Origin: Daphnia carinata
Taxonomy: Eukaryota > Arthropoda > Branchiopoda > Diplostraca > Daphniidae
Reading direction: 5' to 3'
NCBI RefSeq assembly: GCF_022539665.2
Contig: NC_081333.1
Coordinates: 13,204,971-13,268,970, forward strand
DNA: 64,000 nucleotides
Part shown: one piece after another, positions 4,808 through 53,205 of the stretch
Layout: each line of letters starts with the position of its first letter
Position numbering within the stretch: the first letter of the stretch is position 1
The notes under the pieces: model-generated
Databases searched by the model: none
What the model saw: the letters and a program-made list of their open reading frames with translations, nothing else
Told to the model about the DNA's origin: nothing
Made by a program: the position numbers and the translations under genes

Positions 4808-4975
4808 TGCTATTCACAGTGCATCTTAGAAGCCATTGTGCACACTGGATTTGAAAATAAACAGTGGGAGTTTCTCAACCAAAATATAACTAGCTTGACC
4901 AAAAGAACGAGATAACTGAAAGGTTTTGTATTGCAAGAAACATTTAGCAATGCTGTCAACATGGTGATCGTATAT
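4808..4975 (+). pseudogene. PSMD12: PSMD12 (proteasome Rpn5) exon fragment
   Basis: The plus frame reads CILEAIVHTGFENKQWEF then LNQNITSLTKRTR, a stop, then LK. This follows the Rpn5/PSMD12 segment that in animals runs as A-V-V-x-M-C-x-E-A-K-x-W-x-x-L-N-x-x-I-x-L-L-x-K-R-R-x-Q-L-K. The stop falls where the family has S/R-Q. Rpn5 is a lid subunit of the 26S proteasome. Only this piece is recognisable here, so it is a broken duplicate. A related version of the same exon is in the inverted PSMD12 pseudogene near 37,980-38,060 (minus). Confidence 0.65.
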
Positions 4976-5099
4976 TTACCAAAGAAATAAAGCTTTTCTA
5001 CCTCTGTCTCAACAACTACAGGACAAGGAGGTAAGGTGATAACTTGAATTTTTAATACCAAGGCTGTGTTTGTTGTTCCTGTTTAAGTAATAATTAACT

Positions 5100-5590
5100 T
5101 GGTAAGGATCATACTGTCGGGATAATCCCAAAGATTTGGATGTTATTATCCCGGTTGTAGTGAAGAAAAATATTTATGTTATTATTAAAATGTTACGAAG
5201 TGATTTATATGTCTTGAAGTGCTGATTTATTAGTAGAACTTTTTGGAATTCATTTCCAAGCCATGTGTTTGCCAAGAAGAATCATAGATCACATTCAAAT
5301 GTGGGTCCTAAAGATTATTACGTTAATTTTTTCAAAAATAAAACATCTTTGGACCCACCTACACTGAAGCCAAAGTACACTTCGTGGATTTTCAAAGAAC
5401 TTTTGACATAATGTATAAGATTGTACAGATATCTATATTATCGATCATCTCATCTATGATCGATATGATCTCATCCATGATATCTGATGATAATATAGAT
5501 AATTATAGATGATTTAGATTTAATATTTAACAAAAATCACGAATATTAAATTTGTTTTTCTGTAAACTTCGTGGTTTATGAGATATTTTA
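5100..5590. other. AT-rich spacer with imperfect hairpin
   Basis: No gene is seen. At 5,430-5,520 there is a cluster of short inverted and direct repeats of 'atgatcgatatgatctcat' and 'gatgataatatagat' type that could fold into a hairpin. It leads directly into the satellite monomers that start at about 5,590. Confidence 0.4.
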
Positions 5591-6090
5591 AATATAAAAG
5601 TAGGTACGCTAGAAATTTAAGGCCCGACAAAACAACTAGCCCGACTTTTACCTAAAAAATTAATATCTATAAAACTAGATAACTATACATGATTTAGATG
5701 CTAAATTAAACAAGAATCACGAATATGATATTTGTTTTTATGTAGACTTAATGGTTTTTGAGTTATTTAAAATATAAAAGTAGGTACGCTAGAAATTTAA
5801 GGCCGGACAAAACAACATGCCAGATTTTTACCTAAAAAATTTATATCAATAAAACTAGATAACTATAGATGAGTGAGATGCTAAATTTAACGTTAATCAC
5901 AAATATGAAATTTGTTTTTATATAGACTTGATGGTTTTTGAGTTATTTCAAATGTAAAAGTAGGTACACTAGAAATTTAAGGCCCGACAAAACAACAAGC
6001 CCGATTTTTACCTAAAAAATTAATATTAATAAAACTAGATAACTTTATATGAGTTAGATGCTAAATTTAACAACAATTATGAAAATGAAA
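5590..6090. repeat. ~180-bp satellite, about 3 monomers
   Basis: The phrase 'gtaggtacgctagaaattta' recurs at 5,600, 5,780 and 5,960 (one base changed in the third), giving a 180-bp period. Each monomer also contains 'tttgtttttatgtagactt', 'ggtttttgagttattt' and 'aaggcccgacaaaacaac'. The same family appears in the vasa units. The array abuts the left boundary of block T1 at 6,097. Confidence 0.9.
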
Positions 6091-7629
6091 TTTGTTGTTC
6101 ACCATGTTAAAACGATTAGATAAATAACGGTTAGGCAACGCAGCCTCACTAGTAGTTCCCGCCAATGTTTTCTGCTATGCCAAACTTCAGACGAAGTCCG
6201 GTAGCGAAGGTGTGTAGTCACGTATCTAAAACATCTGAAGTTGTAGAAAATGCTCTTGAGTAATGTAGTAATCGTAACTTTTATTTCCCTTTTATTAAGT
6301 TGTTTGGCATAGTGGTATAAAAAACAATCTTTATCTTATGTTTATCTTTCAGGATTTTTGTTTTGGTTTACTGCTGTTCCTGGATGGACAATGGACGATA
6401 GAAACAACAAAATAGTAAGCTGGCAACTCATTTGGCATGATAAAATGAACAGCCTTTCAATTCCAAACAAAAACGAGTCATGGTAATTGTATGTTTCGTA
6501 TACATTTCTGTATTAACTATCACTTATCTAGATTACTCTTTTGACATGACACTTTATATGGCTGGTCTCGGAGTAGATAATGCTTGTTGTATGCAGAATA
6601 TCTCACTGAGAAGGGGTTCTACTATGGAAGGAGTATCGTGTTTTACTACAGGCTGACCAGAATCACAAGCACATTGATTGGAAACTATTGTGAATTTCAA
6701 GAATTGGTAAGTGAAATATTAATAGTAATAATACGAAATTGTAATAATTTTCTAATGATAAGTAATTACTTTGGATTTATTGTTGGGAAAAGGTGACAAT
6801 TTTTATAATATAAATTATTATTTTGTAACAGGTTAGAAACCATTTTCTAGGCTGTTTATGGTAAAGTATATTATATAAAGCTATGAATTCATGTTATCCC
6901 AACAAATTGTAAACAATTGTACTAATTTTTATCTACCTTTGTCGAAGCTTTGTTAGCTATAGGTCCCTATAGACAAACTTACACTTCAGTTACTAGCAGA
7001 TGAACAGCCTTTCAATTTCGATCAAAAGGAGTTGTGGTAATTTTTATATTATTTTTATTGTTATATTTCATTATTTGTTATTATATTTATAACAGGTGTG
7101 TAAAACAAATTTCTAACCTGTTTGTGGTAAAGTACTTTATTTATCAATTATGAATAATGTTATCCTACTAAATTGAAAATAATTGTACTAATGTTAGGCT
7201 AACCTTGTCGAAGCTTTGTAATCCATAGGTCTCTTACTTTACTTGTCTTTCAGTGATCAGGACAATGGGGCTTAGCGTAACATTTAATAGTTATTCAAAG
7301 TCAGAACAGTTGAAATTTCAAGTAGATTCACATGTGCAGGGAATACTTGTAATAGTATTTTGCAGGTACAAGAATTATACATACATATTACAACTGTATT
7401 GATGAGATTTTCGATGCTTAATAATTTCTATTTCCATTCAGAAGTAACAGGTTATTAATGTGACTTGAAGTACATGATGAATACCAGCAGAGATGAAACC
7501 TAAGAGTAACAACGAACATATAGTATGGTACTATAAATGTTTTAAATAATCAGTGGTACTTAACAATTTTCAGTTCCTCGTTTGATGCAGTTTGAAAGGC
7601 AGCCAGATTAAAAACTTGAGCACCTACTC

Positions 7630-7985
7630 ACACACAGGAGAAGGATGGTGAATTTGGGTATTTGCTGATAGGGATTGGTGTTTCAAACAATGGAAATACT
7701 TGGGAGCCCAAGAAAATCTTTATTGTAACAATTTGATTGCAGCATTCGAAAGCAAATTTCTACCGTTGAATGAGCATCCTGAAAACAAGATAAGCCAAGA
7801 GAAGAAAATTGCGAAGAAAAAAAGAACTAAAGCACAGGTTTGTTTCGTATTCTTAACTAGAAGCAATGAACATCAAGTTGTGGTCAGTAAATCTATAGTT
7901 TTCTCCATGTCATTATGGATGCCCAGTCTTCCAACATGATTTGATCGAAATGTAGAGGCGGAGACAATTTTAGGAGTGAGCAATT
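7630..7985 (+). pseudogene. HP1: HP1 chromodomain/chromoshadow pseudogene (T1 copy)
   Basis: One frame gives KDGEFGYLLIGIG...NTWEPK, and after a one-base shift the next frame gives ENLYCNNLIAAFESKFLP. Together these match the second half of an HP1 chromodomain (family pattern VEYLLKWKGF..ENTWEPEENL.C..LI..F). Downstream, at about 7,915-7,980, MPSLPT-stop-FDRNVEAETILG matches the start of the HP1 chromoshadow domain (TGFDRGLEAEKILGA in Drosophila HP1a). Lesions: the lost base at 'gagcccaagaaaatct', K-W-K replaced by I-G-I, and a stop in place of the Gly of TGFDR. HP1 binds methylated H3K9 in heterochromatin; this copy cannot encode it. Confidence 0.75.
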
Positions 7986-8948
7986 ACTGTAAAGAAACTA
8001 CATAGGTGACTGTTTTGTTTGTGTTTTATTAAAACTACCCCATATCATTTTCAAGAGATATTTTTTTTGTTTTCAGATAGATATACTGACGTGTGAAGAA
8101 GGGTAGTTACAGGGCAGGAGAGTATACCCTTTCATTTATCTAGATCTGTTAATTGGGGAGCTCTATTATGGTAACAGTAGTGTTTTAGTACAACCTGACC
8201 AGAATAACAAACTCATTTTCGAAGTTTTGAACATTTTAGTTTGCAGTATAATACTTTTTCCTTTTTATTGTTATAAATTTTGTCTTTTTAGCTGCTGAAT
8301 GGAACTGGAATAGGAAATACTGGAATTGTAGTGACAGCCCATTGTGTAGTTGGAAAAATAAGAAAGATATTTATTTCTAGGTAATTGAATGTATTGTTTA
8401 ACATTTATCTAGTCTATTGATTGTGAAGGAATTTAATAAAATATTGTTTTATTACAGATCAGATATAAAAATAGTCAGAGGATTGTAAATCATAGATCTC
8501 TCAGTGATCATAGTATTTCAGACCCATCAGACAATTGAATAATTATTCAGTCAGAACATGTTGAAATATTAAATAGAAGCACATGTGCAGAAGATGCCTT
8601 TTAATAATGTGTTGCAAGTACAAGTTTTACATATATATTTTCCAACTGTATTGATAAGATTGTCAATATCTAATAATTTCTATTTACATCCAGGAATTTG
8701 AATTGTTTTGTTGTTGAAATTTGATGCAGTTTTAAAGGCAGCCAGAATAAGCACTTCAGCACCTACTCACATACGGATTGGAAAATGGTCATTCCTTAAA
8801 GAAATGGAATGCTATTGGTAACAGTTTGATTTAATTAAGAATTAGTTTACTAACATAGATTTAGAGCTAATGTAATACGAAACTGATAACCTCTTAGTTT
8901 ATATATTTAAAGAAGACAATGAAGCTAATTAGCATTAATCCAACTTAC

Positions 8949-9924: not shown

Positions 9925-11390
9925 GAGTGCAATTTCTGGGGCCGAAGAGGACATTGGGCAACGAGGATAGCCCCGCAGCCACTGGAATATCGCCCAGGAT
10001 TCCGAGGTATATAATAAAATATTTAGTATTTATGTATTTGTTTTAAATCTTATATATCTAGGAGGGCCACATCACCACCAAAGGGGGACCGTTGGGCAAC
10101 GAAGGTCACCGCCAAAATCCTAGCCCATAATCGCAAGGTATTTAACAATTGTAAGTGTTTTACCATGTTCTATGTATTTATCTGTGTCTAGGAGGGCTGG
10201 CAACACTACCGAGGAGGATTATTGGACGCCGGGAATCGCCGCCGAAGTCGCCAAGGGTTACCAGGTATTGCTTTAACAATTTTAAATGTCTAATCGTTTT
10301 TTTCTATGTTTGTAAGGTGGTCCACATCACCGAAGAAAGCGATCGGACAACGAGGTTCGCCGTCGGAGCCACCTTGATCGTCGCCCAAAATTGTCACGTA
10401 TTTCATTAAAAGTTTTAAGTTTTGAACAATGGTTTTATTTTGTTTTTATGGATTTAGGAGGGCAGCATCACCATCGAAGAGGATGCGCGACATCGAGGAG
10501 CGCCGCTGGAGCAACGAGAGGCACGGGTATTGAGGTATTTTTTAAAAAACGTTTAAGTGCTTAATCATGTTTGTTTTTTTATGTATGTAAGAGGGCCTCA
10601 CCACCGCCGAAGAGGATGCTGGACGCCGAACGCCGAAGAGGATGGAGCACCGACATCGTCTTCATAGATGTTACAGGTATATGTGTTACAGGTTTAATTG
10701 ACTAACCATGTTTTTTTTTGTATTTTAGAGGTTTCCATCATCGCTAAGGAGGACTACTGGACAACGAAGTTCGTCGTCGGAGGCATCATAATTGTTGCCC
10801 AAAATTTTAAAGTATTTAATTGAAAGTTTTAAGTTTTACACTATGATTTTATTTTGTTTTTGTGTTTTTAGGAGGGCTTCGCCACCATTGAAAAGGATGT
10901 AGGACGCTGTCGGAGTTACCATGATCGTCGCCCAAAATTGTCATGTATTTATTTGTAAATTTTAAGTGTTACACTATGATCTAACGATGTTTTTATTTAT
11001 TTAGGAAGGCCCTACCACCATCGAAGAGGATGCTGGGCATCGAGGATCGTCGCTGGAGCTATGGTAATTGTTGCCCAAATTTGTCAAGTATTGAATTGAA
11101 AGTTTAAAGTTTTACGCCATGATTTTGTTGTTTTTATGTATTTAGTAGGGTCCCACCACCGCCGAAGAAGACGCTGGAGACCGAAGAGGACCGAGATCGT
11201 CGCCACGGATATTCAGGTGTATTTTTTATTTATTTAGTGTTTAACCATAGTTTTTTTTAATGTATATAGGAGGGCCTCGCTACCACCGAAGAGGACCACT
11301 GGACACCGTGGATCGTCGTTCGAGGAATGAGGGTCGTCGCCCAGCCCCGAAATTCACGCCCATTAGGAAGATGGAAATGAAGATGGTACG
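9925..11390 (+). repeat. Tandem array of 11 exon-like units (T1 copy)
   Basis: Units start at about 9925, 10062, 10191, 10317, 10458, 10591, 10729, 10872, 11006, 11147 and 11270, so the period is 123-143 bp. Most consist of a 70-90-bp GC-richer segment (consensus near 'gagggccacatcaccaccga' plus 'agaggacnnctgganncg') that begins after TAG or AAG and ends before GTAT, then an AT-rich 50-60-bp segment. This is exactly an exon/short-intron alternation (for example exon 10,062-10,137, 76 nt). Exon lengths are not multiples of three and no shared reading frame persists, so a spliced non-coding RNA or decayed repetitive gene is more likely than a protein. Confidence 0.6.
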
Positions 11391-11930
11391 GTTGAGTATT
11401 GCCAAATTGGCTTTTACTTACTTTATTTCGTATTGTGATTTGTGTGATTGATATGTGTTTGCTTCGTTCCTTCTTTATTCCCATTCTTTTCCCTCGAGCA
11501 TTATTGCTTATGGTTTCACCGTTCACTGAGCCTTCAAATTCACTACACCTGCACCCCACAGTTCATTCACGGTTTGTTTGCTATTTTGCACCGGTCGGGA
11601 TTAGTGTTTTAGGTAATGTAGCCCAGCTTACATAGGTTTCACGCTAAGTATTTTTCTGTTGCAAGTTTACGAACACTAACTGCTTAAGTAAAAAAAGGAA
11701 AACAAAATGAATAAATGGGCAACTTATTGTTGTTTTTTTTTATATGGAATAGGATTGAAAAAGTATACAAAAACAATTAATCGCTTGTGATCGGGTTGAA
11801 TACATCGATTGTCAACCCGATAAAAACAGGAAGGGGAAATAACCCGTCTAATCTGCCCCATAAACAGAAATGAATAACCCGCTCAGCAAAACCCGACCCG
11901 GTCGACGTGGGGCTGTGAATCTGACCCAAG

Positions 11931-12633
11931 TCATAGATAAAGACGACTGGTTCGTTATGTCCATAAGAGAAATAACATGGGCTGCTGACGCAAAAATTTA
12001 GGGTACCCTTCCTACGATTTTTTGGATCCTTACTCTGATTGTACTGCCATCTAGTGGAGGTTTTGATCACTACTGAAAGTGTAAGTAGCTTTCCACCAAC
12101 CGCCATTGTTCGTGGCAGTTTGTGGCGTCCTGAAGCTGGATTTGGCTTGAAAATGTCGTTCCCTAAAGAAAATAAGAATAGGATAGGTTTGTACAGTTTG
12201 ATTTATGGAGTGATCTGTTATAATTTTGAATGACCAAAGTAAATAATATTTGAATTTAAAGCTTACAATATGACAGGCAGCTTTGGTAAATGGAAAAAAG
12301 GGAAACAAGAACTTGAAAGTGTCGTGCGTCTAACCAAAATTTGAAGAAAATTGATCCAAAAAATCAAGAGCCTGATAAAAAGCGAGGACCCATTGACATC
12401 GTTTCTCATAAAAAGTAACTCTTCTGAAGGTCTTTTCATTTCTAGCTTGCTAACCAATATTCTAACTCTGGGTGTTTTTATAGTTCAAGATCTCGATAGT
12501 AACAAAGTTGGTGTGGACAACAATAGTTCTACCCAAAAAATTTATACCAGGGACCATACTTCCAATCCTGAAAGAACTGCAAGTTTGTCTAGCAGCTAAG
12601 CTCTCGTAATTCACAGGTATGTGTAAATCTTTA
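11931..12633. other. Spacer between T1 and the kinase paralogue
   Basis: Only short frames are present. A CTCF-like site lies at 12,044-12,057. Upstream exons of the broken kinase paralogue could be hidden here or in the following gap, but I could not align anything here with the intact paralogue at 55 kb. Confidence 0.4.
12044..12057 (-). promoter_or_regulatory. CTCF-like site
   Basis: The minus strand reads CCACTAGATGGCAG, which fits the CTCF core consensus CCASYAGRKGGCR. An identical 14-mer, also on the minus strand, lies at 25,084-25,097. The first is just right of block T1 and the second just left of T2. The match is to a consensus only; occupancy is unknown. Confidence 0.35.
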
Positions 12634-35560: not shown

Positions 35561-35561
35561 T

Positions 35562-35974: not shown

Positions 35975-36054
35975 TATCAAAAACATTTGAGCAGCTCTAT
36001 TTCTGTGATCGTATTTCACTTAGGTTAACACTGTATGCTAATCGATCCGTCCAA

Positions 36055-36128: not shown

Positions 36129-36129
36129 A

Positions 36130-36990
36130 ACCAAACATTTGACGTCATGTAGGACATGTTGTAAATGTAAATAACGTAATAGCATTGTTAATGTAACTAC
36201 TGATAAGTGCAATATTTTTTTACATAATAATAATGTAGTAATTAGTCATTTATTGCAATTTGCAGATAAATTTATCACATATATTTTTATAATAACCACG
36301 TTACATCATTTCAGTTTAACATTATGTATAAATTACTGTACTTCTTACAATATATCTTTCTCACGAATTTTAAGGTTAAAATAATAACCTATCTCCTCTT
36401 TCTGAATAGCGGCTTATCCGAAATAGTTTATTATTCCTTTGTTTCTTTACGTATTATTTTTATTCCGCGGGGTATCATATCTTTTCCGTGGGCTAGTATA
36501 TTAAGTAAACCCAATCGGAAAGGAATATGGAAGAAATATATAAAGGAATATGAATACAACCTATCACGTAAATCTAAATAAGAAAACTAAATCAGTTTAC
36601 TTTTCCCCAGACCTACAACATTATAATTCCTTATTGAATTATCAATGAGCACATTTTGAAACATACTTCATTGCCTAGCCTTTAACTACGCACTTGTAAT
36701 GTTTTCACAACGCTCAATCTTATAGGCTATTGGTGTTAGATCATCTCTCCTTCACTTACCATTTCTTCAAATTCATGGCAATATATCTCATTCTCCCACA
36801 TTCCAATGCCCATTTCATTCAATGACTGTTATTCGGGTCTATCTGTAAAAAAGCATTAATCACATTTATACATAACATTTCCCACAATATTTTGGCAATA
36901 ATTGTACGTCTACTGATATGTTAAACCTATTACACAAAGCTAAATTCCAGATGTGATGCAATCTTATTTGCATAGTTAAGGCAGATTTAC
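36130..36990 (-). repeat. Right palindrome arm, inverse of 33.2-34.05 kb
   Basis: 'gtgggctagtatattaagta', 'aacctatcacgtaaatctaa' and 'catttcattcaatgactgtt' are reverse complements of sequence at 33,400-33,720 with few changes. No gene is seen. Confidence 0.8.
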
Positions 36991-36999
36991 CAAGTGTTC

Positions 37000-38213
37000 A
37001 TCCGCCTCATTCGTGTTATCGAATAACATCGCGATTCTTTAACATGCAAAAAGAAGTTACTTGTACGTTTTGCTCTATTATACATGTGATTTACTGCACT
37101 GACCTCTATTAATGATATCTTTGTCGGGAGGAATGTCTATGCCTTCGCCATACTAGTTGGTACTATTGACAGCGTGTCAACGAAACATCAGCTCGACAAC
37201 CACCAACAATTGCAGAGGCTCTTTCTCTTAGATCACTGTTGTGTTGTACATGGCTTGATTATGTTAACAAATGTAGAGATATAATACCTGTTCTTGTCAA
37301 CATCAGGAATCTACACAACGATGAATAATTCACCAACATTTCCTCTCCACCTTCCCACGCTTAATAAGACAGATGGAACAATTTTAAAGTATTCCTACAT
37401 GAAAATATTTCAATTTAAAACTGAGCACATCTTTCTCTAAAAACAAATCTGACACTTATCTTTTTCAAACTGAACTGAGTGCAGATGCAGAAGAAACAAT
37501 CTCATTCGTTTCAAGATAAGTTCCTTCTGTTCACTGGTATTAGAACATGAGATTGCATGACAGAATTATTTGACCTTAAAACCAAAATTAATATGTCTTA
37601 CATTTTCTAGCTTTTCCATAGAATCACTGGTCTTGAACAGAAGTCCTTGGAGCATGTCTGCAGCTTCAGCAACTTTACCCTACTTCTCTTGCATTATGAC
37701 AAGAAAGTTTGTATCAGCTTCGATTCACTCCAATATAGATCAAAAATAAAATATTTTTTTTTTAAAAAGAATAAGAGAAACTAAAGACCAAATTCGTGTG
37801 CACCTTTCTAACGGGAACAGTTCTGAGTGTCAAATCCAGTAATCATAGATTTGTACATTCATATCCACAACTCGTGACAGAGTGGAGGTCTCTCCCATTC
37901 GCCATACCAGTTGGTACTATTAGACCCGAAGATTTTAGCTTGCTCCATCGTTAGTTCTAGCTTAGGATATTTTCATTGCTAAGGTGCCACTGCTTAATTC
38001 CGAAACTGATCTGGACAATCGGTTCCAAGATGCACCTTGCTGAAATGGTAGCTACCTGTGAGCAAAGCATAGGATCAAGTAAGATACAAAACAATACAGA
38101 AATTCAACTCACAGGTCTTGTATGTTTTTCAAAATCAAAGAGAATTTCTACGATTTCGTTTAAATTCTCTTCTGTGGTCAAGGCTTTACAGGTTGGTGTC
38201 CTATCGTCGCCAT
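37000..38213 (-). pseudogene. PSMD12: PSMD12 (Rpn5) pseudogene, right palindrome arm
   Basis: Minus-strand counterpart of 31,835-33,200. 38,213-38,113: EENLNEIVEILFDFEKHTRP ending at the same GTGAGT donor. About 38,060-37,970: RCILEPIVQISFGIKQWHL (family A-V-V-x-M-C...K-x-W). About 37,690-37,610: GKVAEAADMLQGLLF then SMEKLENV (family G-D-V-x-E-A-A-x-I-L-Q-E-L..YGSMEK). Here the E-A-A helix is better preserved than in the left arm, so the two arms have decayed separately since duplication. Frames are interrupted and no complete protein is possible. Confidence 0.75.
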
Positions 38214-39059
38214 GTTGAACTATAATCCCCTTTAATTTTAACGATGCGACGCTCGTCAGTTGTCTTTGATGCTGCCATATCTTTCCGTTCGCTACACGTC
38301 TTTAAGATTTTAAAATTACCAAAACTGGATTAAATGCCAAATAGAACTTCGCCAATATGAAATTATCAAATATATATACCGGTATTTCTTGTTTGCTTAC
38401 AAACTTTCCGCGCATACAACACTGAGCTTCATGTGCACTTGTGCAGACATGTAAGACAGCGTTGCGAAGTATCGAATTGGTAAAAGGAAAGGGGAAGGTT
38501 AAGAAAGAAAGACTTGGGTCAGATTCACAGCCCCGTTTCGATCGGGTCGGGTTTTGAGCGGGTTGTTCATTTCCGTTTATGGGGCAGGTTGAACGGGTTA
38601 TTACCCCATCATGTTTTTATCGGGTTGTCAATCATTGTACACTAACCGATCACAAGCAATTAATTGTTTTCATATTCCTATTTTTCAAGTCACCATTCAA
38701 TATTCAAAATACAGCAGTAATGTATTTTGTTCTACGATAGCAGTTAGTGTTTTGCAAACCTGCAGAAAACAAATACGCGTGTAACCTATGTAGGTAGGGC
38801 TACATTACCTAAACCACTAATCCCAACCCGGTGCATTAAGTCGAATACAAGCCGTGAACGATCCGTGGGGTGCAGGTGTAGTGAAATTGCGTGCTCAGTG
38901 AAAGGTAAAATCATAAGCAATAATGCTTGAGGGAAAATAATGGGAGGGAAAAAGGAACGAAGCAAACATCTATCAATCACACAAATCACAATACGAAATA
39001 AAGTGAAAGCCAATTTGGCAATACTCAACCGTGCCATCTTCATTTCCATCTTCCTAATG

Positions 39060-40640
39060 GGCGTGAATCTCGGGGCTGGGCGACGACCCTCATTCCTCGA
39101 ACGGCGATCCACGGCGATCCACGGCGTCCAGCGGTCCTCTTAGGTACGTACCCCTCTGGCGAGGCCCTCCTAGGTACGTAAAAAAAAAATATGGTTAAAC
39201 ACTAAATCAAAAAAAATTTATACCTGAATATCCGTGGCGACGATCTCGGTCCTCTTCGGCCTCCAGCGTCTTCTTCGGCGGTGGTGGGACCCTCCTAAAT
39301 ACATAAAAACAACAGGATCATAGCGTAAAACTTTAAACTTTCAATTCAATACTTGACAAATTTTGGCATCAATTACCGTAGCTCCGACGGCGAACCTCAT
39401 TGCCCTGTGGCCCTCTTCAGTGGTGATGTAGGCCATTCTAAATACATTTAAAAGAATGATTAGACAATTTAACGTGTAAACATATACCTGCTACATCCAT
39501 GGCGAAGATTTCGTTGCTCCAGCGGCGATCCTCGATGTCACGCATCCTCTTCGATGGTGGTAGGGCCCTCCTAAATAAATAAAAACAAAGTTAGATCATA
39601 GTGTAACGCTTAAAATTTACAAAAAAATACTTGACAATTTTGGGCGACGATCATGGTGACTCCGACAGCGTCCTACATCCTTTTCAATGGTGGCGGAGCC
39701 CTCCTAAAAACATAAAAACAAAATAAAATCATAGTTCAAAACTTAAAACTTTCAATTAAATATTTGATAATTTTGGGCGACAATTATGATGCCTCCGCCG
39801 ACGAACCTCGTTGTCCAGTGGTTCTCCTTAGCGATGATGCAACCCTCTAAAATACCAAAAAAAACATGGTTAGACAATTTAACGTGTAAAACATATACCT
39901 GTAACATCTATGACGACGATGTCGGTGCTCCAGCATCCTCTTCGGCGGTGGTGCAGCCCTCTTACATACATAAAAAATAAACACGATTAAGCACTTGAAC
40001 GATTTTTAAACAATACCTCAATACCCGTGCCTCTCGTTGCTCCAGCGGCGCTCCTCGATGTCACGCATCCTCTTCGATGGTGATGTAGCCCTCCTAAATG
40101 TATAAAAACAAAATACAACCATAATTCAAAACTTAAAACTTTTAATGAAATACTTGACAATTTTGGGCGACGATCGAGGTGGCTCCGACGGCGAACCGCG
40201 TTGTCCAGTGGCTTTCTTCGATTATGTGGACCACTCTAAATACATAAAAAAAACGATTAGACATCTAAAATTGTTAAAGCAATACCTGGTAACCCTTGGC
40301 GACTTCGGCGGCGATTCCCGGTGTCCAGTAATCCTCCTCAGTAGTGTTACCAGCCCTCCTAGACACAGATAAATACATAGAACATGATAAAACACTTAGA
40401 ATTGTTAAATACCTTGCAATTTTGGGCTAGGATTCTGGCGGTGACCTTCGTTGCCCAACGGTCCCCCTTCGGTGGTGATGTGGCCCTCCTAGATATATAA
40501 GATTTAAAACAAATACATAGATACAAAATTTTTTATTGTATACCTCGGAATCCTGGGCGATATTCCAGTGGCTGCGGGGCTATCCTCGTTGCCCAATGTC
40601 CTCTTCGGCCCCAGAGATTGCACTCCTGTATGTATGCAAG
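39060..40640 (-). repeat. Tandem array of exon-like units (T3 copy)
   Basis: Minus-strand version of the arrays in T1 and T2. GC-richer pieces ending in 'ggccctcct' (plus strand) alternate with AT-rich pieces with ~125-145-bp period, and the AG and GT(AT) borders are kept. Unit order is the same as in T2, so the array as a whole was duplicated; it was not amplified independently. Confidence 0.6.
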
Positions 40641-41402
40641 GGGCAAAAATAAAAAAAAATAAAAATTTTTCGATATTGGAACAGCACCATGTTTCATCTT
40701 AATTCTAACAGGCATCAAGTACACAAATTACAGTTACATTGGATAAAAAGTTCCTGAAAAAAGAAATTTTTTATTAATAGTTAAAGAGTCAGGAGGTTGT
40801 TTGGATTGGGTTTGGCTTGTTCAAGTGTAAACTGTGTGAATTAGAAACGTGCAAATGTTCGTAGTAAAATTATTTTCGAACGACTACGGTAAATAATTAC
40901 ATAAAACAGTGCAAGAAAATAGCTGAGATAGTGTTGCGCATAAATAACGAAGTGAGGTGGACTACGCTTTACGCCTTACTTAAAGTAGCATTAATTTTAA
41001 CTTTAGATTTACTTATCCTTAACATAACTGTAGATTTACTTATCCTAAACTTAATCTACGTTTATCTATTTCATCTAGAATTATCGTACTCCCCAACTAA
41101 ATAAAACCAGTGCAGAGGCTAAACCAGGTGCCGATTCAGTGCGTTATTAGAGCGTAATAGATGAATCTACGATTTACGAGAGCTGAGAACACGTGCTAAA
41201 GTGCTAAGAATAATTAGACGTGGATTGTAAGCAACAAATCTACACCAGTGCACCGCGTGCAGGTGAAAGAGCTACTGAGCTGCTAGATTCTTTTTTTTTC
41301 TTCGTCTCCCCCCTCCTTTTTTTGTGAATGCCCGAGGTTCTGTTTCTAGGCACTTGGAAACAAAAAAAAAAATTAAAGTAACGTAAGGTCTATTGATAAG
41401 GA

Positions 41403-41633
41403 ATGGCTATAACCTTGGGCTCACCTGGAAATAAAAATTTGCCCTTCAACCTATCGACCTTCAGAATTAGGTCCCTCTACCCTACACTATACTTCCGGGA
41501 ACGCAATAATGTGACACGTGTCTGCGAGTATTTAAGGCGTCGTCTAGACGCTAGATATTCACATTCGTACGGAGTCTTGCCTATACAAGTGTACCACAAC
41601 TACAACACCATCGTCGATCGATTCGCCTGTCAG
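41403..41633 (+). CDS. Conserved unknown first exon (T3 copy)
   Basis: Starts MAITLGSPGNKNLPFNLST and is open to the donor CAG|GTAAGTT at 41,633/41,634. After about residue 60 the frame differs from T1/T2 because of a small indel (HNYNTIVDRFACQ). No family recognised. No second exon identified. Confidence 0.35.
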
Positions 41634-43244
41634 GTAAGTTGAATTTATGTTAACTGTCTTTAATTGTAGAAAGTATGAGGATTTTAATTATGATTAAATT
41701 AGTTCTAAATCTATGTTAGTCACCAATTAGTATACCATTATGTTAAGTGTAGTATATCATTATGTTACAATTATGTTAACTGTCTTTAATTGTAGAAAGT
41801 ATGAGGATTTTAATTATGATTAAATTAGTTCTAAATCTATGTTAGACACCAATTAGTATACAAATGTACCACAACTATAATACCATCATCGATCGATTCG
41901 CTTGTAAGAAAAGTTGAATTTATGCTAACATGCTTCATTGTCTTCTTCAGTTGTAGAAAGTAAGAAGAAATCAACTTTGTTTAGGTTAGCTCTAAATCTA
42001 TGTTAGTAAACTATTTTTGAATTAATTCAAACTGTTACCAATAATACTACTTTTCTTTAGGAAATGACGTTTGTTCAGTCGTTTGGCGATTAGGTGCTGA
42101 AGAGTTTACTCTGATTCGCTGTCAAACTGCATTAAGTGAATAATTGAAAATTAAGTTTCAATAATTATTTTAAAAATTTATAGTACCATCTTGTATTCAT
42201 TGTATCTGCTAGATTCATCATTGCTGTTATTCATCCTGAAATCATGTTCGTTAATTCACATCACTGAAATGCTACTCCTGAATGTAAATAAAAATTATTA
42301 AGCATTGACAATCTTGACAATCTTATTTTAATCACCTGCAAATCACTATTAAAATGTATCCTCTGCACATGTGAATCTACCTGATAATTTAAATGTTCTG
42401 ACTTTGATCAAATATTATGCTAAGCAGAATTAATTTGATCATTGTTAAACACCGAGCATTCAAATGTGTTTGTACATCTTGTCGATAACAACACGATTGA
42501 TAGGCTTAGAAAAATCCAATATAAATATAATAATAAATTTTACAGAATAGAAAATAAAACATAATTAATCAGAAATAAAATAACAGATAAAATAAGACAA
42601 TGTATGTTCACAAACTAGTTAATTGTCCAACCAATTACCAACATTGCAATATTTCCTATTAAATATTTATGAAAAGTGCAATAATTCCTGTCGAAGACTT
42701 TAATAATAAAAATGGGGAAAGGCCCCACCTACATTACAATCAAATTCAGTAGGAAAACTACTAAACATTCATAATGACATGTAGAAAAATATAAATTTAC
42801 TAACCTTTAATATTCATTGTTGCTTGTTACAAATTTATAACACATCTATCCTTCCGAAGTAATGTTATGCAAAGCCAAATTATTCTGAGCACTGCGACAA
42901 TGTGTTTGTAATTCTGGTCAGCCTGTAATAAAATATAACAATTTACTTATAATATTACAACTATATTTAGAAATGAATATATAAAATATAAATAAAACTA
43001 GATATAGCAAGCCAAATGTCCTAACATTAAAATTCCAATATTTCATGTTCCAGCTACATTCAGCGGATAAAAAGACAATTTATAATAAAAGTGGAAAGGT
43101 ATTGTATAAAAGAATGACTCTCCTGCCCTGCAACCATAATCTTTACACACCCCTACAACTATCTAAAAGCAAAACAAAGATCTCACTTGAAAATGACATG
43201 GGGAAGTTTTAACAAAAAAAATCAATATGGTTACCTGTATAGTT

Positions 43245-43710
43245 TTGTCATCGCTTGCTCCTAAGATTGTCTCCACTTCTACATTTCGATCAAATCCTGT
43301 TGGAAGACTGGGCATCCATAATGACAAGGAGAAAACTATAGATTTACTGACCACATCTTGATGTTCATTGATTCTAGTTAAGAATTTGAAACAAACCTGG
43401 GCTTTAGTTCTTCTTTCTCCACAATTGCTTTTGAATGGCAATCAAATTATTAGAATAAAGATTTTCTTGGGCTCCCAAGTATTTCTGTTGTTTGAAACAC
43501 CAATCCCTATCAGCAAATACCCATCCTTCTCCTAATATGATATTTCAGATTCAGTTATAATAACAAGACGGTCAATTTATATTAACACATTAAAGTTAGA
43601 TAAATTTCCAAACTAACCTCAGACTGAGAATTTTCCCAACAATGTATTCTTCATCGTCCATGTCACTGAGCGGAGATGAAGCCTGATTTGGCACCTTTTT
43701 TCCTTCATCA
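43245..43710 (-). pseudogene. HP1: HP1 pseudogene with N-terminal exon (T3 copy)
   Basis: Three exon-like pieces read on the minus strand. 43,700-43,620: SSPLSDMDDEEYIVGKIL, the start of an HP1 chromodomain (family EEYVVEKIL), followed by a GT donor. About 43,533-43,405, after an AG: GYLLIGIGVSNN / NTWEPK, then, one base shifted, ENLYSNNLIAIQKQ-like sequence of the chromodomain end. 43,330-43,250: LPTGFDRNVEVETILGASDD, a very good match to the start of the HP1 chromoshadow domain. The lesion at 'gagcccaagaaaatc' is shared with the other three copies. The frame is broken within the chromodomain, so no HP1 is made. Confidence 0.8.
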
Positions 43711-43720
43711 TGTCAGGCGT

Positions 43721-44820
43721 GACAAAAATCACAACACGAAAGTTAACTCTTTTTCGTAATATCCTTCCACGCAACCTGAAAGGTTTAAGTCAGATTAGAT
43801 GTGCGTTACTAATTCCCTGATTCTAGGCGTCACCTGAAGACCCTGGAACAAGCATGGGAAACACAGTAGAAAATGTTTTCAATTAAGTTTCATCTTGCAT
43901 AACAACAGTTCAAAAACGTGGTAAAAGATAAAAATCTATGCTCACCTGCATAACGAAAAATAAAGAAAGTGAGAAATTATTGTTACGGCTTTTTACAGCT
44001 CCAACACGAGCACTTTCTTCGTTCCACACCAGATGGAATTTTGCAGACGCCTGTAGTTCAGTACACAAAAGGTCGTTGGTGATTGGTCGTTCACTGGCAA
44101 TGAGAAGAGAGGAAGCCCAATAGGCGGATTGTTATTAACATCGCCCTGTTGTAAAATTTTGACATGTAAGCCCCAAATCAACGTTTAGTGAATTGAATTT
44201 AAGGCAATAAATTTAGTTCTGATTGGAAATAAATAGACAAAGAATAAGATGACCATATGCAATATGATGGACTGTAAGTTCTCTAAATTTAAGCAAAAAG
44301 TATACCAGCACAGGCAGTTCAGTACTAAACCGCCATTACGCTTCAGTTATGAAGTATACCTGTAGTAACGCCTGCAAATGCTACTAATGTTACTCCAGAG
44401 ATGGCGTTGGCAAATCAATGTTATCTGTATGAAGAACAATTGTCAATATTTGTCGTATTATTCTGGTACTTTAGCATGTAAATACAATTTTTTCTTGGAA
44501 ATGGCGTTGATTTGGTACAAAGCAAAATAACTTATTAATTTAATGAAATAAATTAACTTACTATTATTACTAGGTAATAATAATATTACTAAACAATTTC
44601 GTAACTTAAATGTCCATATCACACAATTACCTATAACGTAACGATTTTATCGAACTTTGTATTATTTAAAAAAAAGAATAATTTTTTATTTACAATATTA
44701 TACAAGAAGATAATATGTTCCGTCATCATTACTTATATACCATTTGATCAAAATTATGTTCAACATTATCAGCAAAGTAGAGATCAATATAATATAAATG
44801 TTTTAAGAACTGAAGGTTTA
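43721..44820. other. 1.1 kb with no recognisable gene
   Basis: AT-rich, with short frames only. It separates the T3 block from the vasa-bearing tandem units. Nothing here was matched to other parts of the window. Confidence 0.45.
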
Positions 44821-44960: not shown

Positions 44961-45924
44961 GCTGTTAAAATTACCAGAGTGCAAGTGCAGGACAGGCGAT
45001 TCTAAAGTAAATTAAGTAGTATATATTTAATTTTACATATATTAACTCCTGCCTTTTACCTGATATGTTTTTATACATATTGATGAACTGCATTAACACC
45101 AAAGAACTACCAACTTTTGTTAGTTTCCAACATAACCTGCATATACATTTACGTTCCTATCATTATAATTTAGATACTTACCTGCACATTATGTATGGTA
45201 GAATAGATTTCGCAATACTTACACACTTACCTATTGCATGGAAGAAACATGTGGTAGAAGCGTCAGGGTAGATGTTAACGTTCACTATCCTTAAATCTAC
45301 CCCACCTCACCTTCAGCCTACAAAAGTTGGAAACTTTACTAAATTAACCAACTCCTTAATCCAACATTGCCACCATGCAAGTTACGATTTGATTAGCACC
45401 ACTTACCCCAATCTACCGAACAAATTATTTTCAAGTGTACATCATACTACCCTCCCCCACCCCCTCAACACTCATATCTGTGTAATTTTTTCTAGTACTT
45501 AAAAGCTAATAACTTCACACATTTACGAAGAAAAGCAAATATTAAAACAGATAAGTAACACAAAGCAAAATCGCTAAGAAACGTGCTCAACCATCCTGTT
45601 GCGACAACACAATCCGGAATTGGAAGCGTAAGATGCATATTGCACCATTCGGAAGTTGGGCAGCTGTACTATTCCGTCGTCCACTCTTTCCCATCCATTT
45701 CGCAAATTCGGTGACTTAGAATGGCCAATTCACGAGTGGGTAGCTTCTGGCTTTTGATCCATGGCATGAGACGCAGCATCAACACCTTGTTCTAACAATG
45801 TTCAAAACCGTTCCAAGTACGCCACCTGCATGCAAAAAAATTTTAAATTTTAGATGACTTGAGCAACGAATAGCACAAAGTGTTTGTGGAATACCTTGGC
45901 TGCAAGTGGACCTTGCATTGGTTT

Positions 45925-46145
45925 CAAAATTACTGAGCGTTAATTAATTGGGATTACTGTTTTGCCAGAGCCCGTGACAGCACAACCAATTAAATCTCTT
46001 TTGGCAAGAATACCTGCAACTGAAGCTTTCTTAACAGGTGTTGGTTTTACGTAGCCAGAATTTTTAATGCTTTGAAGTAGTAGATGGCGCAGGCAGGTTT
46101 CTCCGAATGGTGTTACGTATTGAGGTTCATCTTTTCCTGTAACCT
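45925..46145 (-). pseudogene. vas: vasa-type DEAD-box helicase fragment (unit 1)
   Basis: The minus strand reads VTGKDEPQYVTPFGETCL, then LLLQSIKNSGYVKPTPVKK and DLIGCAVTGSGKT. This is the start of a Vasa helicase core: the F....L...I..SGY..PTPVQ region and Walker A (A-x-T-G-S-G-K-T). The invariant Gln of the Q motif is Lys (PTPVKK) and a stop follows ten residues after Walker A. Vasa is an ATP-dependent RNA helicase of the germ plasm and piRNA pathway. The identification as Vasa rather than DDX3 rests on the TG.DVP and IKNSGY..PTPV wording. Confidence 0.8.
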
Positions 46146-46619
46146 AAAGATGACACAATAGAAATGTTAAAATCACGACATGCAGTTTCGAGAAATGGCT
46201 TACCTGAAGGACGAATTTATCAAAATTGTTAAAGCGTTCCCCACAGACGATGCCCCTTAAATTTTGTTTTTTTTTTTCTCAAAAGTGGGATAACCAAATC
46301 TGCCAAAAAGAATTCTGAAAAAAGACAATTAGCCAAGCAAGTAGAAGTAGGATAATGAAGAATTGTCGCATACATATTACCAGAATGTTTTAAGGTGCGA
46401 CGCAACATCTGCACAACAGTCTCTTACAGTGACGATTTTCAGAATGGCGGCAAACAATATCTAGCAAATGCATCGACCACAATGACGGCGAAAAACGCGG
46501 GAATAAGTCCGGTACTTCAGAAGCAAGAGACCCCTTCCCCCCTACTGCAACGTTGCCTATTGGAAAACGGAAAACATTTTTTTAAATATAATTAAACGTT
46601 GTATTATTCAAAATTTTTA

Positions 46620-47345
46620 TTTTTATTTTCAAGAATCATGAATATGAATTTTTTTTGTAGACTTCATGGTTTTTGAGTTATTTCAAATATAAAAGTAGGT
46701 ACAATAGACATTTTCGGCCCGGTCCACAACTTTTACTTCAAAATAATAATGTCAATAAAACAAGATAACTATATATGATTTAGATTGGAAATTTAATAAG
46801 AATCACGAATATGAAATTTGTTTTTATGTAGACTTCATGGTTTTTGAGTTATTTCAAATATAAAAGTAGGTACGCTAGAAATTTAAGGCCCGACAAAACA
46901 CCAAGGCCGACTTTTACCTAAAAAGTTAATATCAATAAAACTAGATAACTATATATGATTTCGGTGCTAAATTTAACAAGAATCACGAATGTGCAATTTG
47001 TTTTTATGTAGACATCATAGTTTTTGAGTTATTCCAAATATAAAAGTAGGTACGCTAGAAATATAAGGCCCGACAAAACACCAAGCCCGACTTTTACTTA
47101 AAAAATTAATATAAATAAAACTAGATAACTATATACGATTTAGATGCTAAATTTAATAAGAATCATGAATATGAAATTTGTTTTTATGTAGACTTGATGG
47201 TTTTTGAGTTATTTAAAATATAAAAGTTGGTGCAGTGGCCCGTTCCAGAACTTTTACTTAAAATCATAATATCAATAAAACTAGATAACTATATGTCATT
47301 TAGATTGTAAATTTAATAAGAATCATGAATATGAAATTTTTGGTT
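46620..47345. repeat. ~180-bp satellite, about 4 monomers (unit 1)
   Basis: 'aaaagtaggtac' recurs at about 46,693, 46,864 and 47,044 and as 'aaaagttggtgc' at 47,224. The monomers alternate between 'ggcccggtccacaactttta' and 'ggcccgacaaaacaccaagc' variants in the same order as in unit 2, which shows that the whole unit, not single monomers, was duplicated. Confidence 0.9.
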
Positions 47346-48409
47346 AGTAAACAGTAACGAAACCTTACTTTAAACATGCTTCGTCCTTAGCCGAGTCTAA
47401 AATGGTTCAACTGAATGTCATACCAATAGATGGCTATACTGTTTGTGGGACGCTTTCTGATAAAAATCCTTTAAGTTTAATTGTTAATCTCTCGCGAGAT
47501 CAAAAAATGCCCATATAATTTCGCTGATTAAAAAATAAAAACATGAATCATTCCGATAGTTTATTTATCTTTTGGCTATAAATTGTCCATTTAAACATAA
47601 TTCAATTTCAATGCTAAGTAAAATGGTAGTCAGTTTATTGTCATGCATGGTTCTAGGGTTAAATACTTAACGAAAGTTTGAAGGGCTGCTCGGAATTATA
47701 GCACTTATATTATGCTTGGATTTAACCTGGAAAAGATAAGGTAATAAGTAAAAATGGCTATACACATTTAAGTGTTACATAAATTAACTATGCGTTTTTA
47801 TACAAATGAATGAAAAACTACCAACGTCAGTGTGCTTAACTTACCAACTTTTGGTTTGTTTTCAACATAACCTGCATATACGCTGCTTTTATTATAATTT
47901 AATTATACTTTTACCTGCACTGTTGTATGGTTTATTTTTTCGTTTAAATTTCGCAATACTTACACACATTTACCTATTGCATGAAAGAAACATGTGGTAG
48001 ATGCGTCGGGGTAAATGATGTTAACGTTCGTTATCCTTGAATCTACCCTACCTCACCTTCAGCCTACAAAAGTTGGAAACTTTACTAAATTAACCAACTC
48101 CCTAATCCAACATTGCCACCACGCAAGTTACGGTTTGATTAGCACCACCTACCTCAATCTACCGAACAAATTATTTTCATATTTACATCACACTACCCTC
48201 CCCCACCCCCTCAACACTTATCTGTGTAATTTTTTCGAGAACTTAAAAGCTAATAACTTCACATATTTACAAAGAAAAGCAAATATTAAAACAGATAAGT
48301 AACACAAAGCAAAATAGCCGAGAAACGTGCTCAACCATCCTGTTGCGACAACACAATCCGGAATTGGAAGCGTAAGACGCATATTGCACCATTCGGAAGT
48401 TGGGCAGCT

Positions 48410-49300
<891 letters not shown>

Positions 49301-49789
49301 AAGATGACCCAATAGATATTTTAAAATCACGAAATACAGTTTCGAGAAATGGCTTACCTGAAGGACAAATTTATCAAAATTGTTAAAGCGTTCCCCACAG
49401 ACGATGCCCCTTAAATTTTATTGTTTTTTTTTCTCAAAAGTGGGATAACCAAATCTGCCAAAAAGAATTCTGAAAAAAGACAATTAGCCAAGCAAGTAGA
49501 AGTAGGATAATGAAGAATTATCGCATACATATTACCAGAATGTTTTAAGGTGCGACGCAACATCTGCACAACAGTCTCTTACAGTGACGATTTTCAGAAT
49601 GGCGGCAAACAATATCTAGCAAATGCATCGACCACAATGACGGCGAAAAACGCGGGAATAAGTCCGGTACTTCAGAAGCAAGAGACCCCTTCCCCCCTAC
49701 TGCAACGTTGCCTATTGGAAAACGGAAAACATTTAAAAAAAAAGTAATGTAATTAAACGTTGTATTATTCAAAATTTGTATTTTCATTT

Positions 49790-50500
49790 TCAAGAATCAT
49801 GAATGTGAAATTTGTTTTTTTGTAGACTTCATGGTTTTTGAGTTATTTCAAATATAAAAGTAGGTACAATAGACATTTTCGGCCCGGTCCACAACTTTTA
49901 CTTCAAAATAATAATGTCAATAAAACAAGATAACTATATATGATTTAGATTGGAAATTTAATAAGAATCACGAATATGAAATTTGTTTTTATGTAGACTT
50001 CATGGTTTTTGAGTTATTTCAAATATAAAAGTAGGTACGCTAGAAATTTAAGGCCCGACAAAACACCAAGGCCGACTTTTACCTAAAAAGTTAATATCAA
50101 TAAAACTAGATAACTATATATGATTTCGGTGCTAAATTTAACAAGAATCACGAATGTGCAATTTGTTTTTATGTAGACATCATAGTTTTTGAGTTATTCC
50201 AAATATTAAAGTAGGTACGCTAGAAATATAAGGCCCGACAAAACACCAAGCCCGACTTTTATTTTAAAAATTAATATAAATAAAACTAGATAACTATATA
50301 CGATTTAGATGCTAAATTTAATAAGAATCATGAATATGAAATTTGTTTTTATGTAGACTTGATGGTTTTTGAGTTATTTAAAATATAAAAGTTGGTGCAG
50401 TGGCCCGTTCCAGAACTTTTACTTAAAATCATAATATCAATAAAACTAGATAACTATATATCATTTAGATTGTAAATTTAATAAGAATCATGAATATGAA
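49790..50500. repeat. ~180-bp satellite, about 4 monomers (unit 2)
   Basis: Same monomer order as in unit 1 with only scattered substitutions, for example 'gtaggtacgctagaaattta' at about 50,033. The segment continues without a break into 'tctctcgcgagatcaaaaaa' and the unit's right end. Confidence 0.9.
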
Positions 50501-50939
50501 ATTTTTTGTTAGTAAACAGTAACGAAACCTTACTTTAAAGATGCTTCGTCCTTAGCCGAGTCTAAAATGGTTCAACTGAATGTCATACCAATAGATGGCG
50601 ATACTGTTTGTGGGACGCTTTCTGATAAAAATTCTTTAAGTTTAATTGATAATCTCTCGCGAGATCAAAAAATGCCCATATAACCTCACTGATTAAAAAA
50701 TAAAAACATGAATCATTCCGATAGTTTATTTATCTTTTGCCTATAAATTGTCCATTTAAAGATAATTCAATTTCAATACTAAGTAAAATGGTAGTCAGTT
50801 TATTGGCATGCATGCTATAAGGTGTTAATACTTAACGAAAATCTGCTGGATTGCTTGTGCAATAATAGCAAATGCTACGTGGATTGAACCTGGAAAACAC
50901 AGCGTAATTAATAAATTTAGGTATATATATCTAGGTGTT

Positions 50940-51600
50940 AAATAAATTAACTACTGCCTTTTCATTTGAATTAATGATAGACATTCAACCTCAATGTTTA
51001 ACTTACCAACATTTGTTAATTTTAAACATAACATGCATGTACGCTGCTATTAATATAATTTAATTACACTTTTACCTGCCCATATTGTATGTTTTCTTTC
51101 GATTAATTTCGCGATACTTACACACATCTACCTAATGCATAAAACAAACATGTGGTAAATGGGCCAGGATACATGATGTTAACGTTCATTATCTTTAAAT
51201 CATCCCCAACTCACCTTTAGCCTACAAAAGTCAGGAACTTTACTAAGTTGACCCAACTTCCTATTCAAACCTAAGCCCCATGCAAGTTAGGATTGATTAG
51301 CACAACCTACCCCAATCTACCTTACAAATTAATTTCATATTTACATCATACTACCCTCCACCATACCCCCCCCTCATTTCTGTGTAATTTTTTTTTTTAG
51401 AACTTAAAAGCTAATTTCACTTTTTTACACTTTTACAAACAAAAGCAAATATTAAAACAGATAAGAAGTAATATAAAGCAAAATCACTGAGAAACGTGCT
51501 CAACCATCTTGTTCCGGGAACACAATCCGGAATTGGAAGCGTAAGATGCATATTGCAACATTAGGAAGTTGGGCAGCTGTACTATTCCCCTTTTTTTCTT
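50940..51600. repeat. Partial third tandem unit
   Basis: Matches the left ~650 bp of units 1 and 2 ('gatgttaacgttcattatc' at 51,176, 'agcctacaaaag', 'caatccggaattggaagcgtaagatgc' at about 51,520) and stops just before the vasa exons. It is more diverged than units 1 and 2 are from each other. Confidence 0.8.
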
Positions 51601-52314
51601 GATCGACGAACTGCGAATAGATTAAATACATTGACCTGCAAATGTATTATCCCACGTCACTGTTTCAGGAATCAGCTCCTAGAAATGATGCTTAATTCAA
51701 CTTATTTGATCATCATTGACATTTATCGAAGTGTTTACCTGTTAAGTCTTCCATACTTTTTAAAAACCCATGTCGACTTTTATTGCCAATTTAGAACAAG
51801 TCAAGAAGAACATTATTGAAATTTTTGTTTCAATGAATTTCAAATTGTTACCCTTTGGTTAAGTGGTTCAAATCATCTATGCAAACTAGTTGTTGGAGAT
51901 TTCATGGGATACAGGTTAGGTGACCTGGACTTGCTACACTGTTCATCTCCGTACTGAGGAAACTGTAGCATTCTGCATTTCTTTTCCTACGATAATTTCG
52001 TAAAGTTAGTAAAAATTTTCTGAACAATTGAAAGATTTCTGAAGCTAACAAAATGAAGTTTTTATACAATCTGACAGTTGTATGAGATCAAATACTCAAG
52101 ATGAGTATTTGCAGCCAGTCGCACAGCTCACCAGTTTCTTTAGATTTGCAGTAACAATCATCACACTTTCCTTACAAAAAAAAATATATTAATCATCAAC
52201 CAAGTAATTTAAATTAAATCATTTTACCTGTTGACATGAGATCACTTCTCATGTTTCCAACAGAAAGATAATAGCATAAAAACTTGGGGGAAAAAATTTT
52301 TCAACAATGATTGT
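51600..52314. other. Spacer with no recognisable gene
   Basis: AT-rich, with one 62-codon frame at 51,631-51,819 that has no recognised feature. It separates the tandem units from the fourth HP1-bearing fragment. Confidence 0.45.
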
Positions 52315-53205
52315 TGAAAGACTGCTGTGACAATGTGTTTGTAATTCTGGTCAGCCTGTAATAAAACACCATACTATTATAATATTACCACTAAATATAG
52401 AAATGAATATAGAGAATATCAATAAAACTAGGCATAGCATGCCAAATGTCGACACTACAATTCCAATATTTCATGTCCCAGCAACATTCAGCGGCTAAAA
52501 AGACTATTTATAATAAAAATGGAAATGGTTTGTATAAAAGAATGACTCTCCTGCTCTACAACCACCATTCCTTACACATCCCTACAACTACCTAAAAACA
52601 AAAAAAATCTCACTTGAAAATGATACAGTAAAGTTTTAACAAAACAAAATGGTTACCTATATAGTTTCTTCACCATCATCACTCACTCCAAAAATTGTCT
52701 CCACCTCTACATTTCTATCAAATCCTGTTGTAAGACTGGGCATCCATAATGACACGTAGAAAACTATAGATTTAATGACCATACTGATGTTCATTGCATC
52801 TAGTTAAGAATTTGAAAAAAACCTGTGCTTTAGTTCTTCTTTCTTCACAATTTTCTTCTCATGGCTTAGCTTGTTTTCAGGATTCTCATTCAACGATAGA
52901 AATTTGATTTTGAATGCTGCAATGAAATTATGACAATAAAGATTTTCTTGGGCTCCCAAGTATTTCTGTTGTTTGAAACACCAATCCCTATCAGCAAATA
53001 CCCATCCTTCTCCTAATATGATATTTCAGATTCAGTTATAATAACAAGACGGTCAATTTATATTAACACATTAAATTTAGATAAGTTTCCAAACTAACCT
53101 CAGACGAGAATTTTCCCAACAATGAATTCTTCATCGTCCATGTCACTGAGCGGAGATGAAGCCTGATTTGACACCTTTTTTCCTTAATTATTTCAGGCAT
53201 GGCAA
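52315..53205 (-). pseudogene. HP1: HP1 pseudogene (fourth copy, T-block fragment)
   Basis: A partial T-type fragment, most like T3. Minus strand: about 53,203-53,100 reads MPEIIKEK, then one base shifted SSPLSDMDDEEFIVGKIL (HP1 N-terminus and chromodomain start). About 53,010-52,850 has ENLYCHNFIAAFKIKFLS and NENPENKLSHEKKIVKK (chromodomain end and hinge). 52,760-52,665 reads MPSLTTGFDRNVEVETIF (chromoshadow start). It shares the one-base loss in 'gagcccaagaaaat'. A mutation at a run of A (about 53,188) also splits the N-terminus. Confidence 0.8.

Follow-up and report, generated by a model that had tools for sequence, protein, structure and literature searches.

Decayed copies of vasa, HP1 and PSMD12 make up two repeat families in Daphnia carinata, often arranged as inverted pairs

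We analysed a stretch of 64,000 nucleotides (the window) from the crustacean Daphnia carinata (assembly GCF_022539665.2, contig NC_081333.1, positions 13,204,971 to 13,268,970), which ends 4.5 kb short of the terminus of this contig (C3) and carries repeated pieces of three host genes: HP1, the helicase gene vasa and the proteasome gene PSMD12 (Rpn5). A tblastn search of the window with protein queries placed HP1 chromo/chromoshadow sequences at four positions (7.6-8.0 and 27.0-27.4 kb on the plus strand, 43.7-43.2 and 53.0-52.7 kb on the minus strand), a vasa-type helicase at two (49.2-48.6 and 46.0 kb, both minus) and PSMD12/Rpn5 at three (4.8-5.0 and 31.8-33.2 kb, plus; 38.2-37.2 kb, minus). 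Some of these protein matches are weak by themselves (chromodomain E 0.09-0.2). At the DNA level the host genes match the window far beyond chance. The PSMD12 gene on contig C9 matches 37220-39901 along 2.8 kb, with introns and 5' flank included (E = 0, 68%), an HP1 gene on C9 matches 43425-44274 (E = 6e-139, 71%) and the other three HP1 copies as well, and the vasa gene on C4 matches 48467-48853 and 49075-49415 at 86-87% and 48861-49073 at 78% (exon and intron together). A first-pass annotation, made from the letters of the window, had counted four pieces of HP1, two of vasa and three loci of PSMD12, and both kinds of search bear out this tally; parent alignments, self blastn and a tandem-repeat search likewise agree with its description of the pieces as intron-bearing, broken, partly inverted and set within satellites. 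What it missed is their division into two families, the inverted layout found genome-wide and the upstream flank that belongs to the PSMD12 unit. The features are collected in Table 1.

Table 1. Pieces of host genes and associated repeats in the window
Feature	Position	Strand	Evidence
PSMD12 fragment	4752..4995	+	L045 1847-2095 match, 71.5%
HP1 copy 1, permuted (3' flank piece before chromo-to-shadow piece)	7205..7990	+	L081 match; HP1 tblastn
Extra HP1 3' flank piece	8504..8793	+	L081 220-412 and 5-102
PSMD12 5' flank without exons, with 133-bp tandem units	10522..11932	+	L045 2492-3896, 69%; tandem repeat 10776-11032
Mirror structure, left side; aligned arm pieces from ~26.6 kb	25463..34729	+	self blastn
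HP1 copy 2, permuted as copy 1	26549..27359	+	L081 match
Extra HP1 3' flank piece	27892..28246	+	L081 5-366
PSMD12 pseudogene with 5' flank, left arm, type B	30139..33212	+	L045 in two main pieces; tree groups it with C9 type B copies
tRNA-like sequence, inner left arm	34248..34304	+	Rfam RF00005, 35.6 bits (gathering 29); ARAGORN tRNA-Thr 34242-34312
Inter-arm spacer with CCATATC array at 34910-35224	34730..35456	.	tandem-repeat search and self blastn
Mirror structure, right side	35457..44274	-	self blastn; 35411-39913 = C1 arm L030 at 94.9%
tRNA-like sequence, mirror copy	35910..35966	-	Rfam RF00005, 35.8 bits; no ARAGORN call
PSMD12 pseudogene with 5' flank, right arm, type A, part of gene gone	37050..39901	-	L045 1209-3886, 834-1008; shared deletion
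Extra HP1 3' flank piece	42059..42407	-	L081 1-370
HP1 copy 3	43246..44274	-	L081 2162-3038 and 1866-2057
Tandem units of ~3.15 kb, vasa pieces with 180-bp satellite, between HP1 copies 3 and 4	45108..51588	-	tandem-repeat search and self blastn
vasa piece, motif I side only	45709..46261	-	match to L022
vasa piece, ~750 bp missing from middle	48467..49415	-	three L022 stretches; same deletion in L010, L017
HP1 copy 4	52676..53233	-	L081 1868-2504

The parent of the PSMD12 copies is locus L045 (C9:7182137-7183907), with 99% identity to a D. carinata protein, the closest HP1 gene is L081 (C9:6.760 Mb) and the intact-looking vasa parent is L022 (C4:3565584-3568936). Pfam searches on joined exons reported PSMD12 and HP1 domains, and one vasa exon gave a DEAD domain; the joined exons of L022, compared with solved structures, scored best against Vasa (452 bits; DDX3X, 396 bits). 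The locus C6:3171k was initially taken as the vasa parent and then dropped; going by its motifs, it is probably DDX3/belle-like. The copies retain introns and upstream flank, and the removal of introns that marks a processed pseudogene was not seen in them; a retrocopy origin was rejected because introns are kept.

The HP1 and PSMD12 pieces constitute one composite mirror-image repeat, with HP1 on the outside and PSMD12 plus its 5' flank on the inside of two arms separated by a short spacer. Self blastn aligned the arms of the window in several pieces (28302-32034 against 38015-41720 at 86%, 33232-34729 against 35457-37004 at 82%, others at 71-77%). The order HP1-PSMD12-spacer-PSMD12-HP1 is repeated, among other places on C7 and C1 as well as in the window, and DNA searches of the genome returned at least 52 matches to PSMD12 and at least 88 to HP1. 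Contig ends (C1, C3, C10), internal clusters and small unplaced contigs hold many of these copies, and 18 of 34 merged PSMD12 loci (parent counted) have HP1 no more than 20 kb away. Adjacent pairs of PSMD12 copies within 30 kb are inverted in ten cases and direct in none, against 1 inverted and 21 direct pairs for a kinase/ankyrin control family (40 of 81 candidates scored). Nine of the ten inverted PSMD12 pairs are tail-to-tail with gaps of 3.5-5.2 kb, the gap in the window being 3.6 kb. A DIRS retrotransposon was also tried as an orientation control and set aside for having too few copies.

Some details of the composite are worth recording beside its layout. HP1 copies 1 and 2 are permuted in the same manner: 7205-7639 adjoins 7637-7990, 26549-27005 adjoins 27003-27359, and the piece from beyond the 3' end of the gene comes first, the order that a tandem-array junction or passage through a circular intermediate would give. 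Tandem units of 133 bp recur at 10776-11032, 30241-30498 and 39543-39797 and also upstream of the PSMD12 parent; they look like repeated small exons with introns. In the inner arms, transfer RNA (tRNA)-like sequences face the centre from either side, and more such stretches were seen near them by eye. Of 11 further loci searched, two also have a tRNA-like sequence, one on C1 (L030 502-558) and one at the start of C3 (L033 83-139). These sequences could be RNA polymerase III promoters or old short interspersed elements.

Arms elsewhere are far more alike than the 86% reached at best in the window. At six other palindromes, each with inverted arms capable of forming a long hairpin, arm identity is 98.85-99.94%: 99.4-99.7% on C7, 98.85% at C9:7.38, 99.5% at two further C9 loci, 99.94% at C2:3.24-3.27, with copies 33 kb apart, and 99.6% in a vasa palindrome on C4. 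In a tree of the 5' part of PSMD12 (~390 columns) the two C7 arms are identical and fall together; the two arms of the window separate, the left one joining type B copies from C9 and the right one type A copies from C1 and C7. The simplest account is that one old palindrome spread and that the C7 arms were homogenised afterwards; a fresh inversion at C7 could produce the same identity.

The vasa pieces are a repeat family distinct from the HP1/PSMD12 composite. A ~3.48 kb version of the vasa/satellite unit of the window occurs on C47 as seven consecutive copies, and the window copies belong to a middle-deleted branch common to C47 and C7:4.95 Mb. A vasa protein search returned at least 174 matches (150 of 260 candidates scored), counted as at least 95 loci, gene included, and vasa-derived loci are found on all ten large contigs. 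Like the AT-chX repeats of Drosophila, these are multicopy repeats homologous to vasa exons. When the L022 gene was used as the query, 30 of 40 scored places ended exactly at position 1439, inside a vasa exon; two ended at 1406 and 1426, and the remaining eight, among them the gene itself, extended beyond. The 39 places other than the gene are 88-91% identical to L022 over 1.3-2.6 kb. Junctions read at C2, C7 and C8 all run into one common non-vasa sequence, which has 714 candidates in the genome (40 scored) and weaker matches at places without vasa among the matches listed. It is for the vasa family only that we found a shared junction with a repeat that also exists alone, as far as the listed matches go. 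The junction sequence lies tail-to-tail at three loci, on C8, C9 and C6, measuring 2.3-2.4 kb from outer edge to outer edge (the C6 locus is not listed with vasa). Among the 95 vasa loci counted, neighbours within 30 kb are inverted in 11 cases and direct in 3, against 1.6:1.7 for random placement. The fixed end in a vasa exon and the common flanking repeat point to a putative mobile element that most likely captured part of vasa.

We read the window as non-coding, decayed copies of genomic DNA from three Daphnia genes on two families, a duplicated, inverted and ectopically spread HP1/PSMD12 composite and an element-captured piece of vasa, and give this reading a probability of about 0.72. The composite would have been born when gene pieces were duplicated and inverted, PSMD12 copies remaining close to the C9 parent, and would then have reached contig ends and internal clusters via ectopic exchange, the arms at some loci being re-homogenised by gene conversion or re-inversion. 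The vasa repeat would have become dispersed after a mobile element picked up part of the gene, and one branch, truncated and repeated in tandem, would have settled between HP1 copies of the window. If transcribed, the arms are predicted to yield hairpin RNA and small RNAs, among which only the vasa-derived ones could pair perfectly with the messenger RNA of their parent.

It is hardly credible that the copies are living members of gene families with protein functions. One 88-residue exon is still open in many vasa-like copies, and among six long vasa rows the pairs with L022 show a third-position excess; this constraint lies on the L022 side, and the 10 pairs among the other five rows are nearly flat. 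Six type A PSMD12 copies (15 pairs) differ by.106,.090 and.110 at codon positions 1, 2 and 3 and by.102 in introns. Because changes from copy to copy are flat over codon positions, no protein is maintained and a coding gene family was rejected; the copies are non-coding and decay neutrally, with stops and shared deletions. Of 13 loci checked for frames of at least 95 residues, 11 have none above 124. A frame of 161 residues at L010 spans a vasa exon and intron, one of 193 at L054 lies outside the HP1 match, and the longest in the window arms, the CCATATC array aside, has 126. Several observations weigh against the reading of two spreading, decayed families. HP1 pairs within 30 kb, counted after 25 of 88 rows were dropped, comprise 9 inverted and 6 direct and show no clear bias alone; vasa neighbours within 120 kb comprise 13 inverted and 12 direct; and neighbour pairs are not all independent. 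The DNA searches scored 40 of 48 candidates for PSMD12, 40 of 100 for HP1, 40 of 729 for vasa (L022) and 40 of 714 for the junction-flanking repeat. Beyond the junction, the sequence of the vasa-carrying element is read for only ~240 bases, and the C7 junction copy departs from the shared sequence after ~150 bases. No target-site duplication was found flanking the C7 palindrome; for this reason the composite is not established as a transposon, and a simple transposon was rejected as its explanation. Since a gap of 100 N adjoins one C9 palindrome and two C9 palindromes are ~99% alike, some of the C9 copies may be assembly duplicates. Extending this to all palindromes, as fold-back reads or duplicated haplotypes, would draw on the same two facts and on palindrome centres having been read in the window only. 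Such an artefact is very unlikely to have given like order and spacing at loci on C1, C2, C3, C7 and C9 with arm differences ranging from 0.06% to at least 14%, and arm stretches examined contain no N; the kinase family of the same assembly, moreover, is not inverted.

The other alternatives concern function. The first-pass annotation had proposed that small RNAs made by this locus act on the genes from which the pieces derive, an idea that identity too low for pairing would count against. As a locus-specific system this is unlikely, because the window is one of many such loci, and the identity check came out differently for the three genes. The longest exact match to parent exons is 14, 15, 16, 17, 19 and 23 nt in six PSMD12 copies and 11-17 nt in seven HP1 copies (compared with three exon pieces, 309 nt). 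The 23-nt match, in a C9 PSMD12 copy, is the only perfect one of at least 21 nt (HP1 0/7, PSMD12 1/6), and the main aligned stretches are ~67-78% identical to the parents. Palindromic arms do carry both genes at several loci, and windows of 25 nt with at most 4 mismatches occur, covering 0-23% of parent windows; even so, small RNAs from the repeats acting on HP1 and PSMD12 are extremely improbable. For vasa, pairing holds up: one window copy (48.5-49.3 kb) shares 38 nt exactly with the gene, the other 19 nt, and eight copies elsewhere 32-61 nt, so that in 9 of 10 copies the longest exact match to a vasa exon measures 32-61 nt. No base-shuffled copy matched any 25-nt parent window with fewer than 6 mismatches. 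Identity to vasa is 78-87% in the window stretches and 88-91% at the 39 dispersed places. The yardstick comes from fly hybrids with AT-chX repeats, in which silencing of simulans-clade vasa alleles accompanied >90% identity, and the identity to the melanogaster allele was described as insufficient (PMC11172174). Given the exact matches and this yardstick, the small-RNA idea would survive mainly for vasa, whose pieces alone could match a parent closely enough for perfect pairing. Vasa-derived hairpins or clusters might accordingly be imagined to make small interfering RNAs (siRNAs) or PIWI-interacting RNAs (piRNAs) that lower vasa expression, as AT-chX does in hybrids, and the inverted vasa pairs would suit this. 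The two window copies, however, match exactly only 0-1.6% of 25-nt vasa exon windows, and the word vasa is absent from the main text of the piRNA-cluster paper on D. magna, a different species; we consider such silencing possible but doubtful. Loci of this kind may well enter small-RNA pathways, by analogy with D. magna, whose piRNAs come mostly from fragmented transposons by way of long non-coding RNAs (PMC9175491).

The window also holds other elements. A DIRS-like retrotransposon at 14502-19055 has a reverse transcriptase, a recombinase-like frame (Phage_integrase 23.2 bits, under the 27.1 cut-off) and 102-bp identical inverted ends. Its coding part has five full-length genome matches at 99-100%, the window copy included, which suggests that the element was probably active recently. 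Pairs of kinase and ankyrin-repeat genes lie at 12739-14469 and 55302-57706; their family numbers at least 39 loci, and nearly every pair of close neighbours in it has direct orientation. A 33-bp tandem array at 416-1166 is open for >200 codons on both strands, and an assembly gap of 100 N occupies 12634-12733.

Vasa-derived repeats are already known as piRNA sources in flies, and the vasa-exon-derived repeats described here come near the identity range of the allele silencing reported for AT-chX (PMC11172174). Unlike AT-chX, they occupy at least 95 loci on ten large contigs, bear introns, often form inverted pairs and are joined to another repeat. Tapas is a piRNA factor. In D. simulans, the arms of the hairpin hp-ODox1 hold a piece of Tapas, and the Daphnia inverted arms resemble such hairpin RNA loci in holding a host-gene fragment (PMC10317233). 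They differ in being kilobases long, in combining several genes per composite and, for HP1/PSMD12, in matching their parents poorly. Plant gene-capturing transposons (Helitrons, Pack-MULEs) are in conflict with their hosts over silencing, as small RNAs would strike both gene and element (PMC13317346), and in Daphnia too a donor piece meets a dispersed repeat at one fixed junction; here the case is an animal and the donor is vasa itself. Near-identical palindrome arms with gene conversion are described for the Y chromosome and some parthenogenetic animals (PMC7953838). The Daphnia arms are similarly alike, but they hold pseudogenes in decay, not active genes, and they lie on several chromosomes. 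We found no description of these repeats in the literature on Daphnia vasa and piRNAs, palindromes, repeats and piRNA-gene capture, as covered mostly by titles and the first lines of abstracts.

A bolder proposal, which we regard as improbable, is that a D. carinata mobile element captured a large 5' part of vasa, spread to dozens of places, often as mirror pairs, and cannot be silenced without damage to its host's own defence, since piRNAs or siRNAs against the element would also strike vasa. If true, this would be an epigenetic conflict directed at the silencing machinery, vasa being a core gene of piRNA defence. The recurrent mirror repeats offer a natural set for following arm-to-arm homogenisation of non-coding DNA. 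With dozens of vasa-derived copies that match the working gene perfectly in stretches, in a crustacean whose relative D. magna has published piRNA clusters, the question whether an element can hide behind, or attack, a silencing gene becomes directly testable.

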